From: Anaerolineales bacterium | Lineage (GTDB): Bacteria; Chloroflexota; Anaerolineae; Anaerolineales; Villigracilaceae | Assembly: GCA_014860745.1 (NCBI GenBank) | Contig: JACZJC010000010.1 | Span: 1-64,000, forward strand | Length of the DNA: 64,000 nucleotides | Direction of reading: 5' to 3' | In this document: positions 38,732 through 45,150 of the stretch, one piece after another | Layout of the letters: every line of letters starts with the position of its first letter | How positions within the stretch are numbered: position 1 is the stretch's first letter | The notes under the pieces: generated by a model | What the model saw: only the letters and a program-made list of their open reading frames with translations | Databases searched by the model: none | Told to the model about the DNA's origin: nothing | Translations under genes and position numbers: made by a program

Positions 38732-39427
38732 TCACTCACACACCGGAATCGTATCCGGATTCACATTCGCATTCAACGGCAAACCAAAATAAGGCGATGG
38801 GTCATAGGTATTTTCGATTTCCAGTTCGTTCTTGAATTTCCCAAAACCGTCATCCTCCACAACGGAAACATGCAGGTGGATGCCGGCAGGGTTATTTGGG
38901 TCACCGGAGTAATTTCCCTGATAGCCAAGCAGTGTGCCGGCTTCCACAAAGACTTCTTTCGTGCCCCGGGGAAACTCAGCCGAAACGAAGGAATTCCCAT
39001 TTCTATCCGCCATGTGAGTATAGTACACCCAGATTTGGCGCGAAGGTTCCAGCGGATCTTCCGGCACGCGGATGATGACTGTGGAAATCCAATCCGCTTC
39101 ACGGGTGAGATAACCGGGATAGGCGGCTACGATGGGGGTCACGCCGACCTCCGTCCCTGCGAAAATGTCTATTCCGGCGTGGCGGTGACCGGGGCGGAAA
39201 GAATCGTCCCAGATAAAGCCGATCAAGCCGTTGGTGGGGAAAATGAATGGGGCGTCGCCGCACTTCGTTCCCACAGTCATCATCAATTCCGGCCGGGAAG
39301 ATGGGTTGCGGAACCAATCAATGACTTGTGCGGTGCGGACAGAGCGTCTTCCAAAATTAAAGTACAGGGCGATCCCCATAATAGCAATCGCTGCAGGGAT
39401 TGCGAGAAAAACAAGTTTTTTAGACAT
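38732..39427 (-). CDS. M23 family peptidase, membrane-anchored
   Basis: A 231-residue protein with an N-terminal hydrophobic segment (about 4-22), then a lysostaphin-type M23 domain: H-A-G-I-D-I-F with the first zinc ligands near residue 90 and H-L-H-V-S-V near 192. M23 enzymes cut peptidoglycan cross-bridges. The start ATG at 39427 lies seven bases after a minus-strand TATAAT (39439-39434), so the mRNA is probably leaderless; an ATG eight codons earlier would lie upstream of that transcription start. Confidence 0.85.
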   Translation of the reverse strand: MSKKLVFLAIPAAIAIMGIALYFNFGRRSVRTAQVIDWFRNPSSRPELMMTVGTKCGDAPFIFPTNGLIGFIWDDSFRPGHRHAGIDIFAGTEVGVTPIVAAYPGYLTREADWISTVIIRVPEDPLEPSRQIWVYYTHMADRNGNSFVSAEFPRGTKEVFVEAGTLLGYQGNYSGDPNNPAGIHLHVSVVEDDGFGKFKNELEIENTYDPSPYFGLPLNANVNPDTIPVCE

Positions 39428-39496
39428 CCACGCATTATACTCATTTTGCAATTAACATAAATTTTGTCAGATTTGGTTGTCTTGTTTGTCATACAC

Positions 39497-39525
39497 TTGA
39501 ATTCCCAATTAAAACGATGTACTAT
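39497..39525 (+). promoter_or_regulatory. Promoter of riboswitch unit 1
   Basis: TTGAAT (39497-39502), 17-base spacer, TACTAT (39520-39525). Transcription would start near 39532, about 50 bases before the aptamer. Confidence 0.5.
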
Positions 39526-39584
39526 TAATTCAACTTTTAGTGTTATTGCGCTTTGCTTGAGAGGTACGGAATGAATTCACCTCG

Positions 39585-39658
39585 AAACGGCAAACTCATC
39601 GCGAGGTGGGGGCGCAAAGTCATGGATCTGATATGTTTCAGACCGCCAGACTGCCGAA
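39585..39658 (+). ncRNA. c-di-GMP-I (GEMM-I) riboswitch 1, before the subtilase
   Basis: The aptamer shows the conserved GEMM-I blocks: GGCAAAC, a P2 hairpin with GCGA loop, G-CGCAAAG-TCATGG, and a P3 hairpin closing with AGACCGCCAGAC. CGGCA (39588-39592) and TGCCG (39652-39656) form helix P1. GEMM-I aptamers bind the second messenger cyclic di-GMP. The P1 3' strand is also part of the terminator 5' arm that follows. Confidence 0.88.
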
Positions 39659-39687
39659 GGAAAACCCCCTTCTGCAGTCTTTTTTTG
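39648..39687 (+). terminator. Expression-platform terminator of riboswitch 1
   Basis: AGACTGCCGAAGG (39648-39660) pairs with CCTTCTGCAGTCT (39668-39680) with one mismatch, then seven T. It overlaps aptamer helix P1, so P1 and terminator cannot form together. Confidence 0.82.
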
Positions 39688-39782
39688 AAAATGACGGATA
39701 TTTCTACGGAGGTGACAGGACTCAAAGATTGCTCACTCTTTCAGTAAAGCCTTTCATAATCTAATTCATAGGAGATCAAATA

Positions 39783-41159
39783 ATGAAACATAAATCGCTT
39801 TCTGTTTTGATGATAGTGTTCCTGGTATTGAGCAGTATATTTATTTCAGGCGCAAAGGGGAATAACAAGATCGGCATCAATGTAGTGCTGAATACAGATG
39901 TTACCAATGCTATTCTTGCCGATCTTGGCACGCGCGGTACTGTTCGCGATGTGGTTTACGAAATTGACGCCCTGACCATGCAGATTCGTTCGGCTAATCT
40001 GAGAGCCATTCAGGCGTTACCCTATGTTGCATCCGCCAGCCCGGATGCTGAACGCAATGGCGCTCCCGTGGATACGGTTTCTGTAACCGATTTCATGGAT
40101 GGTCTCAGCACTTGGGATCAGGATGCCATCAATGTGACAGATTTTGGTTTCAATAATCGCCAGGTTGAATATGATGGTACCGGTGTGTATGTCGCCGTAC
40201 TCGATACCGGCCTGCTCGATTCCTGGAGACAGTATTTCCCCGAGGAGCGCATCGCTGAAGAATATGGGATCGCCTTCGGCGGCGGTGGCGGTGAAGTTGG
40301 TTCTGTCTCATCTCAGCCAAACAAATGGGAGCACGACCAGAATTCACACGGCACGCATGTGACTAGTACCATCCTCGGCTACAGCTTGCGCGGCACTCCA
40401 GTTAACGGTGTTGCCCCGATGGCGACCATTATCCCGGTTAAAGTCTTGAACCAAAATGGCTCAGGCTGGTCATCCGTTGTGGCGCGTGGTATTGTTTATG
40501 TGGCTGACTTGAAAGACAGCGGCGAGTTGGGAGACTCACCAGTTGTGATCAATATGAGTTTGGGTGGCCCAGTCCAGGAGCCAGTTGAAAAGGCCGCCGT
40601 GGATTACGCCATCGAAAAAGGTGTCATCATTGTTGCTTCGGCTGGTAATTCGGGTGATGCTGGCATGGGGTACCCCGGTGCGTATGCTCCGGTCATTTCT
40701 GTGGCCGCTTCCGGTTGGATTGGTGAGTGGCCCGCCGGCAACAGAAGTTGGTGGTGGAATACGAATGTGGCTGAACCAACCAACCCCGCAGACTTCTACA
40801 TCACTGATTTCTCCAGCCGTGAACTGACTGGTCAAGATCTGGATGTGGCGGCTCCTGGTTCGTGGGTGGTAGGTCCATATCAACTTCAAAGCGGAAAGAC
40901 CTCCTACTACTTCCTTGGCGGAACAAGCATGGCAAGCCCGCATGTGGCAGGTATTGCGGCTCTGATGATGCAGAAGAATGCCGCATTGACTCAGGCGGAA
41001 GTTGAGGGTTATCTCGAAATTTCAGCCATTCGGCTTGCACCCGGATGCCGTACCGTACTTGGCCCAAGCGGATCTTCTGAAACTTTCTGCTGGTATGCGG
41101 ATGCAACTGGCGCAGGATTGGCTACTGCTGATGCTGCTTTGGCTGCAACTCCTCCGTAA
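39783..41159 (+). CDS. Secreted subtilisin-like serine protease (S8)
   Basis: A 458-residue exported protease. Signal peptide at residues 1-24, then an I9-type propeptide (about 28-95), then the catalytic domain with triad D141 (VLDTG), H189 (SHGTHV) and S382 (GTSMASPHVAG). No C-terminal anchor is seen, so it is probably released. AGGAGATCAAATA provides the ribosome binding site. Expression is controlled by the c-di-GMP riboswitch 125 bases upstream, and a strong hairpin ends the unit. Confidence 0.92.
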   Translation: MKHKSLSVLMIVFLVLSSIFISGAKGNNKIGINVVLNTDVTNAILADLGTRGTVRDVVYEIDALTMQIRSANLRAIQALPYVASASPDAERNGAPVDTVSVTDFMDGLSTWDQDAINVTDFGFNNRQVEYDGTGVYVAVLDTGLLDSWRQYFPEERIAEEYGIAFGGGGGEVGSVSSQPNKWEHDQNSHGTHVTSTILGYSLRGTPVNGVAPMATIIPVKVLNQNGSGWSSVVARGIVYVADLKDSGELGDSPVVINMSLGGPVQEPVEKAAVDYAIEKGVIIVASAGNSGDAGMGYPGAYAPVISVAASGWIGEWPAGNRSWWWNTNVAEPTNPADFYITDFSSRELTGQDLDVAAPGSWVVGPYQLQSGKTSYYFLGGTSMASPHVAGIAALMMQKNAALTQAEVEGYLEISAIRLAPGCRTVLGPSGSSETFCWYADATGAGLATADAALAATPP

Positions 41160-41190
41160 GGCTGCCTTTGCCTCACATCTGATTTACGTT

Positions 41191-41224
41191 TTCCGCCGCA
41201 GGAAACTCCTGCGGCGGAATTATT
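41191..41224 (+). terminator. Hairpin terminator after the subtilase gene
   Basis: TTCCGCCGCAGGA and TCCTGCGGCGGAA form a perfect 13-base stem. The following run is A/T-rich rather than pure T. Confidence 0.6.
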
Positions 41225-41284
41225 CTTGTGAGTTTTTTGACATTCACGTACTATTTGCACTCTGCAAAATTCGGAAATTACGCC

Positions 41285-41313
41285 TTGCATAATTCCCTGA
41301 AATTTGTGATAAT
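41285..41313 (+). promoter_or_regulatory. Promoter of riboswitch unit 2
   Basis: TTGCAT (41285-41290), 17-base spacer, GATAAT (41308-41313); start expected near 41320, about 20 bases before the aptamer. Confidence 0.5.
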
Positions 41314-41340
41314 TATCAGGAGATTTCAATAACATAGCTC

Positions 41341-41417
41341 AAAAAGGCAAACTCATCGCGAGGTGGGGACGCAAAGTCATGGGTCTGTGACGATGACAGA
41401 CCGCCAGACCGCTGAAG
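41341..41417 (+). ncRNA. c-di-GMP-I (GEMM-I) riboswitch 2, before the trypsin-like protease
   Basis: It has the same blocks as copy 1 and is nearly identical through AGGCAAACTCATCGCGAGG and the following GGGGACGCAAAGTCATGGG core. P3 is TCTGT...ACAGA. P1 is short and uses a G-U pair. The 3' end overlaps the terminator. Confidence 0.88.
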
Positions 41418-41441
41418 GCAGATTCGCTTCGGCGGTTTTTT
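41409..41441 (+). terminator. Expression-platform terminator of riboswitch 2
   Basis: CCGCTGAAG (41409-41417) and CTTCGGCGG (41427-41435), paired with one G-U, are followed by six T. The 5' arm includes the P1 3' strand. Confidence 0.82.
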
Positions 41442-41566
41442 GTTAACCGCTAGATTCGGGAGGTTTCCGTCACCAATAAAGAGCGCTGTTTCCATGATAC
41501 GGATTGAGATTGTTTGCTGTTCGAATAGTACGACAAATTTTCATTCTCAAAACAAAGGAGTTCGAA

Positions 41567-42364
41567 ATGAAAAAGGTTACTATTTCAGTTTTGTTTGCGC
41601 TCGTTCTGGTATTGAGTACGGTTGGCATTGCCAGCGCAGTTACAGATGGCACTCCCGATGGCAATGGTCACCCTTATGTCGGGTTGATGGTGGCTCAGGA
41701 TGCCGATGGCAATCCCTTATGGCGTTGCAGCGGTACGTTAATCTCTTCGAAAATTTTTCTTACAGCCGGACACTGCACGGAATCCCCGGCAGTGCATGTT
41801 GAAATCTGGTTTGATACAGATGTGGAATCAGGGATTCCCGCGAACGGCTATCCATTCGACGGCAATGTAGGCGGGACGCCCTATACTCACCCTCAATATG
41901 ATCCCAATGCGTTCTACCTTTATGACTTGGGTGTTGTCGTGCTTGACAAAAAATTCAGAATGAAAAAGTATGGTGCTTTGCCACAATTGGATTCATTGGA
42001 CAGCCTTAGCCCAAGCGCCGATACAACCTTTACAGCGGTGGGATACGGTTTACAGGAAAGTTTCCCCGATGCCGCTTCATGGCAGGAAAATAATGTAAGG
42101 GTGCGCATGGTTGCCTATCCACACCTGATCCAGATCAACGGTGGCATTGTTGGCGATTCGTCTCTTTTATTGTCGAACAATGCGAATACAGGCGGGACGT
42201 GCTTTGGCGACTCTGGAGGCCCAAATTTTGTCGGTGATTCCAACATCGTGGGCGGTGTCACTTCCTTCGGCCTGAATAGCACCTGCGGTGGCACCGGCGG
42301 CGTGTATCGTGTGGACAGAGCAGACGACCTGGAATGGCTTGCCACATTCGGTGTAACTCCTTAA
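41567..42364 (+). CDS. Secreted trypsin-like serine protease (S1)
   Basis: A 265-residue chymotrypsin-fold protease. Signal peptide of about 24 residues ends in ASA; its sequence closely resembles that of the third riboswitch-controlled protein. The triad is complete: H69 (TAGHC), D120 (YDLGVVVL) and S216 (GDSGGP), with cysteines placed for the usual disulfides. AAAGGAGTTCGAA precedes the chosen ATG; a longer frame upstream is not signal-like. Under control of riboswitch 2. Confidence 0.93.
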   Translation: MKKVTISVLFALVLVLSTVGIASAVTDGTPDGNGHPYVGLMVAQDADGNPLWRCSGTLISSKIFLTAGHCTESPAVHVEIWFDTDVESGIPANGYPFDGNVGGTPYTHPQYDPNAFYLYDLGVVVLDKKFRMKKYGALPQLDSLDSLSPSADTTFTAVGYGLQESFPDAASWQENNVRVRMVAYPHLIQINGGIVGDSSLLLSNNANTGGTCFGDSGGPNFVGDSNIVGGVTSFGLNSTCGGTGGVYRVDRADDLEWLATFGVTP

Positions 42365-42395
42365 GGCTTGCTGTTTGATCGTATCAAAGTATTTC

Positions 42396-42429
42396 AAAAT
42401 CTCCCGCAGAGAAATCTGCGGGAGATTTT
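42396..42429 (+). terminator. Terminator after the trypsin-like gene
   Basis: AAAATCTCCCGCAGA and TCTGCGGGAGATTTT form a perfect 15-base stem with a four-base loop. Confidence 0.78.
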
Positions 42430-42520
42430 CTTATAAAAAATCTACCCGGCGTTATTCATTTTCTTACACACCCGATTTATTATTGCGGCATTGACATCAA
42501 CCAAAAGGAGAAACACAAAT

Positions 42521-42904
42521 ATGACCCTTTATATCCAACCCTATCCATTTCGCCGCATGGCTCGCCACTGGGCCGAACAGCCCCAGGTCCGTTCGCTGGG
42601 CGTCAACATCCGTGAAGAAGAGGATGCTTATATCCTTTCGGCGCTGGTGCCCGGACTGAAAGCCGAAGACCTGAACATTCAGGTACTCGAAAATGTCGTC
42701 AGCATCGAGGGCGAATACCGAGCGGATGAGGCCGAATACCTATTGAGCGAACTCCCCAGCGGATCATTCCGCCGCTCCCTGCGCCTGCCCGCTGAAGTGG
42801 ATGCAGATAAGGTGGAGGCGAAGATCGCCGACGGTATTTTGACCCTGACCCTGCCCAAGGCAGAGTCCGCCCGACCGAAGAAGATCAAGATTGCAGTTCA
42901 TTAA
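42521..42904 (+). CDS. Small heat-shock protein, Hsp20/alpha-crystallin family
   Basis: A 127-residue chaperone that holds unfolding proteins. The alpha-crystallin domain (about 25-120) shows A-L-V-P-G-L-K-A-E-D-L-N-I, E-Y, G-S-F-R-R-S-L-R-L-P and the A-D-G-I-L-T-L-T-L-P end. GGAG with good spacing supports ATG 42521; the frame from 42491 adds ten non-family residues. It has its own terminator and sits between riboswitch units 2 and 3 without a riboswitch of its own. Confidence 0.92.
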   Translation: MTLYIQPYPFRRMARHWAEQPQVRSLGVNIREEEDAYILSALVPGLKAEDLNIQVLENVVSIEGEYRADEAEYLLSELPSGSFRRSLRLPAEVDADKVEAKIADGILTLTLPKAESARPKKIKIAVH

Positions 42905-42909
42905 TTGTG

Positions 42910-42957
42910 ATGGAATCAAAAAAGAGGCGCTATTAACGCGTCTCTTTTTGATTCCAT
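42910..42957. terminator. Long bidirectional terminator after hsp20
   Basis: ATGGAATCAAAAA...GAG and CTC...TTTTTGATTCCAT form a stem of about 20 pairs with a small internal loop. Confidence 0.75.
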
Positions 42958-43019
42958 ATACCCGCCTGTGAATACAGAATATTTTCCAGTTGAAAATGGA
43001 TAAATCGGATAAAAATAGG

Positions 43020-43048
43020 TTGATTAATATCCCATTCTATTATATTAT
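43020..43048 (+). promoter_or_regulatory. Promoter of riboswitch unit 3
   Basis: TTGATT (43020-43025), 17-base spacer, TATTAT (43043-43048). Start expected near 43055, about 25 bases before the aptamer. Confidence 0.5.
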
Positions 43049-43077
43049 TGGCTTCAAAATTGCAATCTCTTAATCCC

Positions 43078-43152
43078 GAAAAGGCAAACCCACCGTGAGA
43101 TGGAGGCGCAAAGTCATGGGTCTGTAAATCTTACAGACCGCCAGACTGCTGA
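43078..43152 (+). ncRNA. c-di-GMP-I (GEMM-I) riboswitch 3, before the PA-domain protein
   Basis: GGCAAACCCACCGTGAGATGG, GGCGCAAAGTCATGGG, and P3 TCTGTAA...TTACAGA with ACCGCCAGAC match the GEMM-I consensus. P2 carries a GTGA loop with compensating changes (CACC, GATGG), which supports a conserved fold rather than a recent copy. Confidence 0.88.
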
Positions 43153-43178
43153 AGGTCGTATTACTTTGGCAGTTTTTT
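43145..43178 (+). terminator. Expression-platform terminator of riboswitch 3
   Basis: ACTGCTGAAG (43145-43154) and CTTTGGCAGT (43164-43173) form ten pairs including two G-U, then a T run. It overlaps the aptamer 3' end as in copies 1 and 2. Confidence 0.8.
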
Positions 43179-43299
43179 ATTTAACTGCCAGGAGGTGCGC
43201 TTCGAAAATACTTCACTCCTTCGATTGTTTTATCGCGCGATCAGTTGACATTTCAGATGGTACGACCAATTTTCATTCAGAGGACCAAAGGAGATTGAA

Positions 43300-45150
43300 A
43301 TGAAGAAAGTATCTATCGCAATATTGCTTACGTTGGCTTTGGTATTAAGCACCATTGGCGTTGCTACCGCCCATCAGGATGGCCCCTCCGGAGCTCATTT
43401 ATTTGGCACTGGCGCCTGGGGAAACATCGAGCTTTTGAGCGTGGCGGAAGTGACTCAAACGGCCGGCTTGGTCGCAGATGTAGCCGTCAACCCGGCCGGT
43501 ACATACGCGTTCCTGGCAAATTGGGGCGAAGCAAAGTGCGCGCTTAACTCAGAGGCAGGCGGACAGAATAACCCGGACGCTGGCGCCTGGATCGTCGATA
43601 TCCGCGATTTGACCAACCCAACGACCGTGGGCTTTATTCCATCCAGCCAGGACAGCCGACCCGGTGAAGGTATGCAAGTTGTGCATATCACCACCCAGTT
43701 CTTTAATGGTGACCTGCTTGTGATGAATAACGAGCAATGCGGAAAGAATGGTAAGGGTGGCGTCTCGCTCTATGATGTGACTAACCCACTTAAGCCGTAT
43801 AAGGTCTCGGAGCATTTCGGTGATCGCGGCGGGGTTTCAGCCGGCGATTCGAACGATATTCACAGCGCTTTCGCCTGGGACACAGGCCCCAATGCTTATG
43901 TGGTGATGACAGATAACTTCGAGGGGACTGATGTGGATATCCTCGACATCACGAAACCAAATCGTCCGCGGCTGATTGCAGAGTTGGATTTGAATACTGC
44001 CTTTGGCGGCGCGGTCGTGCAATCCTCGCCGTCAAACTTGACCGAAGTGTTTTTACACGATATGGTCGTAAAGAACATCGGCGGGAACTGGGTTATGTTG
44101 TTGTCTTATTGGGACGGCGGGTACGTTCAGCTCAACGTCAATAACCCAGCCAACCCGACCCTGATCGGCGACACCGATTACGCCGCCATCGATCCGCAGT
44201 TGCTCGAGTCTACTGGCGCAAGTCTTGCGCCGGAAGGCAACGGCCATCAGAACGAGTTTACCTTGGACAACAAGTTCTTTATCGGTACCGACGAGGATTT
44301 CGCTCCCTACCAGATGGTGGCTACCAACACAACGGATGCCGTCGTATTTGAAGCCACCCAGGGAAGTGATACTCCCCAGATAGACACTGTCACCTCCCTC
44401 GTTGGCCAGACCGTGTTCGTGGGTCGTGCCTGTAACGGAGACCCGGCTGTATCGCCCGCTGGAAGTGCAAAGATTGCACTTGTGGAACGCGGACTCTGCA
44501 CGTTCACAGAAAAACTTGCAAATGTTGAAGCGGCTGGCGGCTATGATGGCGTGGTCGTGTTCAACCGTGAAGGCGCTGATGCATGCAGCGCCCTGCTTAC
44601 CATGTCAGTGGAAGGAAGCATCCCAGCCATTTTCGTCAACCGGCCAACTGGGTATGCTTTGATGAACGATGGCACATACAACGAAGCTGCCTGTCTCGCA
44701 GGCGCATCGCAGGCGCCCTTTGCCCTCGGAACTCTGGGCGATTCAACTAGCGTGACAGCCGAGTTTAACGGTTGGGGTTACGTTCACCTTTTCAGCAATA
44801 CGTTGGTGGGCGGTAAATTCGCCGATCTCGATACATTTGCCATCCCCGAAGCGATGAACCCGTCATTTGCTTCAGGCTATGGAGACCTGAGTGTGCATGA
44901 GGTTGCGACCGACCCGCAGGACGCCGAGTTTGCCTACCTGTCGTACTATGCTGGAGGTCTGCGCTCGCTGGAAATTCAGTGCTCAAATCCTTTGGATGAG
45001 ACTACTTGCGAACTCGTCGAAGTTGGCGGCTACCTTGATGAAGAGGGCAACAACTTCTGGGGTGTCGAGACCTTTGTCCGCAATGGCCAGACGATCATCC
45101 TTGGAAGCGACCGCGACAGTGGATTGTGGATCTTCCGTCGCACACCGTAA
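43300..45150 (+). CDS. Secreted LVIVD-repeat-like protein with PA domain
   Basis: A 616-residue exported protein. Signal peptide (1-24, ending ATA) is very like that of the trypsin-like protein. The body has repeated segments of the type V-D-I-R-D-L-T-N-P and L-Y-D-V-T-N-P-L-K-P, characteristic of LVIVD / beta-propeller-like repeats. A protease-associated (PA) domain is inserted at about residues 365-465 (RACNGDPAVSP, KIALVERGLCTFTEK, IPAIFVNRPTG). No protease triad is seen, so it is more likely a binding or structural partner of extracellular enzymes. Riboswitch 3 controls it; a good AAAGGAG ribosome binding site precedes the ATG. Confidence 0.82.
   Translation: MKKVSIAILLTLALVLSTIGVATAHQDGPSGAHLFGTGAWGNIELLSVAEVTQTAGLVADVAVNPAGTYAFLANWGEAKCALNSEAGGQNNPDAGAWIVDIRDLTNPTTVGFIPSSQDSRPGEGMQVVHITTQFFNGDLLVMNNEQCGKNGKGGVSLYDVTNPLKPYKVSEHFGDRGGVSAGDSNDIHSAFAWDTGPNAYVVMTDNFEGTDVDILDITKPNRPRLIAELDLNTAFGGAVVQSSPSNLTEVFLHDMVVKNIGGNWVMLLSYWDGGYVQLNVNNPANPTLIGDTDYAAIDPQLLESTGASLAPEGNGHQNEFTLDNKFFIGTDEDFAPYQMVATNTTDAVVFEATQGSDTPQIDTVTSLVGQTVFVGRACNGDPAVSPAGSAKIALVERGLCTFTEKLANVEAAGGYDGVVVFNREGADACSALLTMSVEGSIPAIFVNRPTGYALMNDGTYNEAACLAGASQAPFALGTLGDSTSVTAEFNGWGYVHLFSNTLVGGKFADLDTFAIPEAMNPSFASGYGDLSVHEVATDPQDAEFAYLSYYAGGLRSLEIQCSNPLDETTCELVEVGGYLDEEGNNFWGVETFVRNGQTIILGSDRDSGLWIFRRTP

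Follow-up and report, generated by a model that had tools for sequence, protein, structure and literature searches.

Three class I cyclic di-GMP riboswitch units with a predicted ON layout, and a peptidase-associated aptamer subtype, in an Anaerolineales bacterium

Three aptamers, their terminators and their genes

The window analysed here comprises the first 64,000 nucleotides (nt) of contig JACZJC010000010.1 (GenBank assembly GCA_014860745.1) of an Anaerolineales bacterium from the family Villigracilaceae (Chloroflexota), and it contains three units on the + strand, each composed of a class I cyclic di-GMP (c-di-GMP-I, or GEMM-I) aptamer, an overlapping terminator, a Shine-Dalgarno (SD)-like element and a gene of a putatively exported protein. 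In a preliminary description of this DNA the aptamers were placed at 39585, 41341 and 43078, and the covariance-model search located them within a few bases of these positions: 39580..39659 in unit 1 (GCGA tetraloop; Rfam, and 92.8 bits with R3, a model of the short subtype discussed below), 41337..41417 in unit 2 (GCGA tetraloop) and 43074..43154 in unit 3 (GUGA tetraloop), the latter two by Rfam, RF01051 and R3. The genes that follow encode an S8 subtilase of 458 amino acids (39783..41159, +), an S1 trypsin-like protease of 265 amino acids (41567..42364, +) and a 616-residue PA-domain protein (43300..45150, +); the Pfam matches Peptidase_S8, Trypsin and PA agree with the cargo proposed initially. 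The subtilase carries DTG, HGTHV and GTSMA and the protease TAGHC and GDSGGP, which are the catalytic motifs of these families, while the signal peptides of all window proteins were judged by eye. An HSP20 gene (42521..42904, +; Pfam) separates unit 2 from unit 3, so that the exported proteins do not follow one another directly, as had been supposed. No aptamer of its own was found for the HSP20 gene in the Rfam or R3 searches, and an HSP20-like open reading frame (ORF) also stands behind the trypsin gene in three other loci (L054, L055 and L056; by eye).

The third protein deserves separate mention, since it was listed together with the two proteases. No peptidase domain was found in it, Pfam giving the PA domain alone, and NCBIfam added matches of the PA region to M36 peptidases, far under the cut-off, and a weak choice-of-anchor B match, also below the cut-off. 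The AlphaFold model (mean pLDDT 80.6) gave a Sphingobium phosphotriesterase as its first structure match (TM 0.58 by target), and further matches were to beta-propeller proteins such as CIAO1 (TM 0.72-0.73, rmsd ~13) and LGI1 EPTP (rmsd 6.1, TM 0.70 by target). On the basis of this model we read the unit 3 protein as a putatively exported beta-propeller with a PA insertion and not as a recognisable protease, and the protease reading was dropped.

The identity of the aptamers was examined with Rfam cmscan, which assigned all three to the c-di-GMP-I clan on the + strand (E 8.7e-12 to 2.2e-11). RF01051 scored 59.4, 57.1 and 58.2 bits for units 1, 2 and 3 (gathering cut-off 35), and RF03167 (c-di-GMP-I-GGC) scored 60.5, 59.1 and 59.3 bits in order of position, which also passes its cut-off of 59. 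The top label is therefore RF03167, by a lead of just 1-2 bits. However, in the cmscan alignment all three aptamers have an A after CGC where the RF03167 consensus has G, and they were treated as canonical c-di-GMP-I for this reason; the name GGC presumably denotes G in place of A47, and the GGC-variant reading was rejected. In Vc2 numbering, position 20 is G and position 47 is A in all three. Nine RF01051 matches exceed the cut-off in the whole genome, as counted in the search that had been proposed: besides the three of the window there are a tandem pair on contig C8, a tandem of three on C33 and a single aptamer on C75. The idea that the window aptamers form a tandem riboswitch was discarded, since every one of them has its own terminator and gene. 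As 23 GGDEF matches over the Pfam cut-off were found in the same genome, the bacterium likely makes c-di-GMP.

Every unit has an intrinsic terminator with a T-rich tail, and the 5′ arm of this terminator begins within the final 12 aptamer bases. The unit 1 terminator (39648..39686, +) has one stem mismatch, its 5′ arm reuses the aptamer end and its U-tract runs to 39686; those of units 2 (41406..41441, +) and 3 (43143..43179, +) overlap the aptamer end in the same way and include the start of the tail. Since the strand is shared, aptamer and terminator would be mutually exclusive, as in an ON switch. The predicted ligand-free folds of the leaders include the terminator hairpin (-40.0, -42.9 and -34.7 kcal/mol for units 1-3), and a generic scan did not have the three terminators among its output. 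Whereas the terminators thus bear out what had been said of them, the promoters that were likewise claimed for each unit were not established by site scans: six promoter-like sites were found against 6.3 expected, one of them before unit 3, and the best matches of units 1, 2 and 3 reach 7, 8 and 9 of 12.

The short subtype among relatives

The units were compared with two sets of aptamers. The short set (n = 81) rests on the R3 model, which sets apart a high-scoring group, and comprises 40 matches of the genus with at least 76.8 bits, L156 (70.9 bits, GUGA loop) and 40 matches from the rest of the family; the latter are 40 of the 41 with at least 76.9 bits outside the genus, G125:C9 near a contig end being left out, and weaker R3 matches were excluded. 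The long set contains 104 aptamers in 68 loci, 60 of them taken, non-randomly, from the best of the RF01051 matches listed for the genus (such matches occur in 51 of its 57 genomes), together with five more genus loci and three from the genome of the window that were part of the R3 set; its cargo was classed mainly by blastp clusters. In the short set the first gene was defined as the longest ORF that starts at most 450 nt from the aptamer, and it was classed by Pfam for some units and by blastp to those for others. Among these classes, that of L264 rests on a 51-residue match, L251, L253, L260 and L265 are cut by the stretch or contig, and L134 has an M6 match without HExxH.

A first gene of a peptidase family (S8, S1, M6/InhA-like or M28) follows the aptamer in 69 of the 81 short units, namely in 34/41 of the genus and 35/40 of the rest of the family. 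The genus contributes 19 S8, 7 S1, 7 M6/InhA-like (5 with an M6 domain and 2 with a MAM domain and an HExxH motif) and 1 M28. Its other seven units comprise two with nucleotidases/phosphodiesterases, unit 3 of the window, and one each with a protein that has no Pfam match, a lipoprotein-like protein, a transposase-like ORF and a contig end. The units from the rest of the family gave 17 S8, 5 S1, 10 M6-like and 3 M28 (by blastp to the genus proteins, by Pfam for a few); of the other five, three encode proteins with BNR-like matches, another has a weak metallopeptidase match and the last showed no clear gene. When the genus units with readable cargo are compared, peptidases stand behind 34/39 short aptamers versus 2/68 long ones (Fisher p=3e-20, the units not being independent). 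Beyond the family, a sample of 400 genomes of the order gave a match at E ≤ 1e-18 in 75 genomes and 28 of 130 genera; in the six loci inspected outside the family all first genes resemble S8 proteins already found, and two are 74-75% identical to the window subtilase. Orthologues of the unit 1 gene in other genera and families bear the same switch, and therefore the pairing of subtilase and switch is old. A similar arrangement was seen in a sister genus, where L234 and L235 likewise have three separate short-type units in a row, before a subtilase, a BNR-like protein and a trypsin. In L142 (1506-2871) the ORF judged transposase-like by eye lies directly behind a short-type aptamer.

The overlapping terminator recurs as well. 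The ON layout was detected in 74 of the 81 short units, or 77 with a looser scan, and when the 60 nt behind the aptamer were shuffled it appeared in 5, 1, 2, 3 and 0 of 81 in five rounds. Upstream of 26/81 units a 9-of-12 promoter match is present, compared with ~11% of shuffled segments. In 15 aptamers of the short subtype 95.6% of cells can pair as proposed, and none of 500 shuffles reached the pairing or covariation score. Position 20 is G in 39/41 short aptamers of the genus and 33/40 of the family, and position 47 is A in 39/41 and 39/40, respectively. The GAAA loop is absent from all 81 short aptamers; instead, GYGA loops go with a CU receptor in 58 of 68 cases (with CC in 10) and GNAA loops with CC in 10 of 12 (with CU in 2; p=6e-6), and the UCUA receptor pattern is still matched by four. 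The same loop-receptor preferences were seen in crystal structures, as stated in an excerpt of that work (PMC3494683).

Behind the terminators an SD-like GGAGG is present, at 39708..39712 (+) in unit 1, 41459..41463 (+) in unit 2 and 43191..43195 (+) in unit 3, that is 75, 108 and 109 nt before the ATG. The element occurs 20-75 nt past the aptamer in 63/81 short versus 1/104 long aptamers, and control segments contained it in 3/80 (further downstream) and 6/78 (upstream); the distance to the start codon chosen by rule is 72-115 nt in 60 of the 63. Its match to AAAGGAGGTGATC averages 8.7 nt versus 5.8 nt for 650 other GGAGG sites in the same loci, which are the fairer control, since the true ribosome-binding sites (RBS), averaging 5.5 nt, were picked by a different pattern. 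The element thus resembles a STAB-SD in sequence: it is complementary to the anti-SD, lies upstream of the true RBS and usually lacks a start codon of its own. By analogy, it probably docks the 30S subunit and protects or boosts the message. The genome of the window has a homologue of TIGR00649, the RNase J family.

Long-type aptamers and the weighing of alternatives

The long-type aptamers of the genus precede sortase-like, small exported and ruvB genes, and in 88/104 they combine a GAAA loop with a UCUA-type receptor. None of the 68 that are last in line has an overlapping terminator; a separate terminator was found in 45 and none in 23. Seventeen long-type leaders precede small exported proteins without known family (by a family search on the member from the genome of the window), and in 16 of them the 5′ arm of the separate terminator can pair with the GCCAGGC strand of the aptamer (p ≤ 0.02 with 100 shuffles), and the two strands change in concert, e.g., GCCAAGCC:GGCTTGGC. 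This pairing gives an OFF layout, and these 16 of 17 leaders are predicted to be OFF switches. In the genome of the window the small-exported gene lies next to one for signal peptidase I (above the TIGR02228 cut-off, with a weak SipW-model match). The leaders of the sortase class, named after the member from the same genome, contain a hairpin around the SD and ATG, which suggests translational control.

Several further observations concern other loci. Of 21 tandem pairs that precede sortase-like genes, eight (L170, L171, L172, L174, L175, L179, L214 and L217) have A at position 20 of their first aptamer and G at that of their second, and some others have C; mixed ligand specificity is possible. 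In L169, L180, L181 and L183 single A20 aptamers precede large secreted proteins; these proteins form a separate blastp cluster and have Fn3-like or beta-helix-like stretches by eye. The L159 protein, in which SLH domains and a stretch resembling HExxH were seen, was left out of the peptidase count. On contig C33 (L016:7335-7596) three tandem c-di-GMP-I aptamers are followed by a terminator and a ruvB-like gene (by eye), and the layout scan found no coupling between aptamers and terminator there; tandem aptamers before ruvB-like genes or a response-regulator gene recur in relatives.

One may ask whether the window units could work in the opposite direction, with c-di-GMP repressing the proteases. 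The class I switches of C. difficile are generally OFF, that of the metalloprotease ZmpI included (PMC6200980), and OFF-type layouts exist in the genus, two of them before subtilases; yet in units 1-3, as in most of the short set, the aptamer contains the 5′ arm of the terminator, so that the two structures would exclude each other, and repression appears very improbable. The ligand could also be another cyclic dinucleotide, or the aptamers could be a GGC variant with altered specificity. Here the best Rfam label, the A20 and C20 aptamers within the same genus and the binding of 3′,3′-cGAMP by a G20A class I aptamer, as given in part of PMC6274999, have to be set against G20 and A47 in all three window aptamers, the narrow lead of the GGC model and the A where its consensus has G, which leaves a different ligand improbable, if a little less so than repression. 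The SD-like element, in turn, might be the RBS of a short leader peptide, for which its strong SD match would speak. However, an ATG follows the site at 3-13 nt in just 4/65 cases and any of ATG, GTG and TTG in 11/65; with start codons this scarce the leader peptide was given up as an explanation, and we rate it as unlikely compared with docking of the 30S subunit.

The origin of unit 3 is where an alternative carries most weight. It had been noticed before that two of the signal peptides are nearly alike, which was borne out: a stretch of ~300 bases, running from the aptamer to within the signal peptide, is 68.7% shared between units 2 and 3, and for the post-terminator untranslated region (UTR) and signal peptide the comparison with shuffles gave z=16.1 for units 2/3, 8.0 for units 1/2 and 0.6 for units 1/3, the post-terminator stretch of unit 1 having no blastn match to unit 2 or 3 at E ≤ 1. 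Thus unit 3 might be a simple local duplication of unit 2 in which the mature protein was later replaced; the aptamer, UTR and signal peptide are common to both, and all five matches of the unit 3 post-terminator stretch at E ≤ 1e-5 are trypsin units. Yet when 80 short units are compared, the leader nearest to that of unit 3 belongs to the G050 trypsin (76% over 295 nt, E 7e-54) and not to unit 2 (69%, E 1e-24), so local duplication was dropped as the whole story and seems doubtful, although it is the least improbable of the alternatives considered. The PA protein has orthologues in 2/57 genomes of the genus, its further orthologues (~37-54% identical where matched over most of their length) are mostly actinobacterial by record title, and no aptamer was found in the 9 searched of 22 PA-protein loci. 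It would fit these data if a gene gained by horizontal transfer had received its leader and signal peptide from a trypsin-type unit, both direction and donor being inferred. The earlier idea of duplication with replacement of cargo therefore suits the 5′ module of unit 3, with a nearer relative elsewhere, and has a mixed standing for unit 1.

Some results weigh against an ON-type peptidase set. No peptidase was recognised in first position in twelve of the 81 short units, including unit 3, and seven have no clear overlapping terminator. Being drawn from related genomes, the 81 units are not independent: the aptamers of L141/L142 and of L247/L248 are identical, and the units L133/L135 and L140/L147 look nearly alike. 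No G can be read at position 20 in 2/41 genus aptamers (1 A, 1 unread) and 7/40 family aptamers (1 A, 1 C, 5 unread), and units 1 and 2 have weak promoter matches. The OFF-type layout also occurs before two subtilases with long-type aptamers (L191 and L206); peptidases are therefore not always ON, and the ON/OFF split does not strictly follow function. The G055 orthologue of the window subtilase (82%) has no aptamer match, its divergent neighbour being kept with aptamer remnants only (by eye), and the PA orthologue of G013, from the same genus as the window (75%), has neither an aptamer match nor detected leader homology to unit 3 and bears another signal peptide, yet has a AAAGGAGG site upstream. 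Control by c-di-GMP is therefore not fixed to these genes. The protein divergent from unit 1 in the window (38732-39451, -) has no Pfam match, and its DNA was matched beside the G055 subtilase; it looks M23-like.

Proposed mechanism and comparison with known systems

With these points considered, we regard it as highly probable that each unit is an independent c-di-GMP transcriptional ON switch, that the units belong to a conserved peptidase set and that leader and signal peptide are movable. Without c-di-GMP, the 3′ strand of the aptamer would fold into the intrinsic terminator and transcription would end before the gene; with c-di-GMP, the strand would be held by the aptamer, the terminator blocked and the mRNA of the exported protein made. 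Past the terminator the transcript would offer the long anti-SD-complementary site, ~70-115 nt before the true start and usually with no start codon behind it, where a 30S subunit probably docks, protecting or boosting the message. The units would form part of a conserved c-di-GMP-ON peptidase gene set in this Chloroflexota order, with leader and signal peptide transferable among cargo genes, e.g., unit 3. The secreted protein-degrading set under c-di-GMP control that was initially envisaged is thus supported by the cargo of the short subtype and by the predicted sign, with the reservation that unit 3 is not a protease.

c-di-GMP is best known for attachment and motility, and the predicted units would tie it to extracellular protein breakdown via many separate, alike RNA switches. 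A wider view can be offered only tentatively, as one slightly easier to doubt than to accept: an order-wide c-di-GMP-ON set of secreted peptidases may derive from a transferable export cassette, made of the GYGA-subtype ON riboswitch, a 30S-docking site and a signal peptide, and may stand opposite c-di-GMP-I switches of the OFF type that, within the same clade, control small exported proteins and perhaps sortases. If so, c-di-GMP would be a foraging signal that starts extracellular proteolysis and holds back a surface-assembly programme. The leaders also provide a natural set in which one aptamer class has both ON and OFF platforms and coupled loop-receptor swaps, and they link a strong ribosome-docking-like sequence to one class of riboswitch leader.

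Among the matches listed from the open-licence literature (titles and abstract starts) there was none on c-di-GMP riboswitches of proteases in Chloroflexota, and no paper linking a c-di-GMP riboswitch and subtilisin was found in that literature. A c-di-GMP riboswitch on a secreted protease is nevertheless already known, with the opposite sign, from C. difficile: the class I riboswitch Cdi-1-12 precedes the ZmpI gene and acts negatively, according to an excerpt of PMC6200980. There, one protease is switched OFF, whereas here several peptidase families are predicted to be ON. The topology proposed for the window has its precedent in the pilM c-GAMP riboswitch of Geobacter, an ON switch in which, as described in part of PMC9262584, the terminator takes the ligand-binding strand, and whose OFF counterpart is Cd1 of C. 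difficile; aptamer and terminator are mutually exclusive in the same manner, and the differences lie in the ligand and the gene. For the SD-like element, the closest parallel is the STAB-SD of cry3A, where the 30S subunit blocks RNase J1 (PMC4113751, in excerpt): both are SD-like sequences far upstream of the start codon that do not start translation, but the present one is placed behind the terminator of a riboswitch and is found throughout a set of genes, its stabilising role being a prediction. The aptamers themselves share with RF01051 the fold, the conserved core and an above-cut-off score, and differ from it in a short P3, in a putative GYGA/CU:AG contact instead of GAAA and the UCUA receptor, and in standing mostly before peptidase genes. 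What is new, within a known riboswitch class, is the combination of a distinct aptamer subtype, a conserved peptidase set and an added SD-like element.

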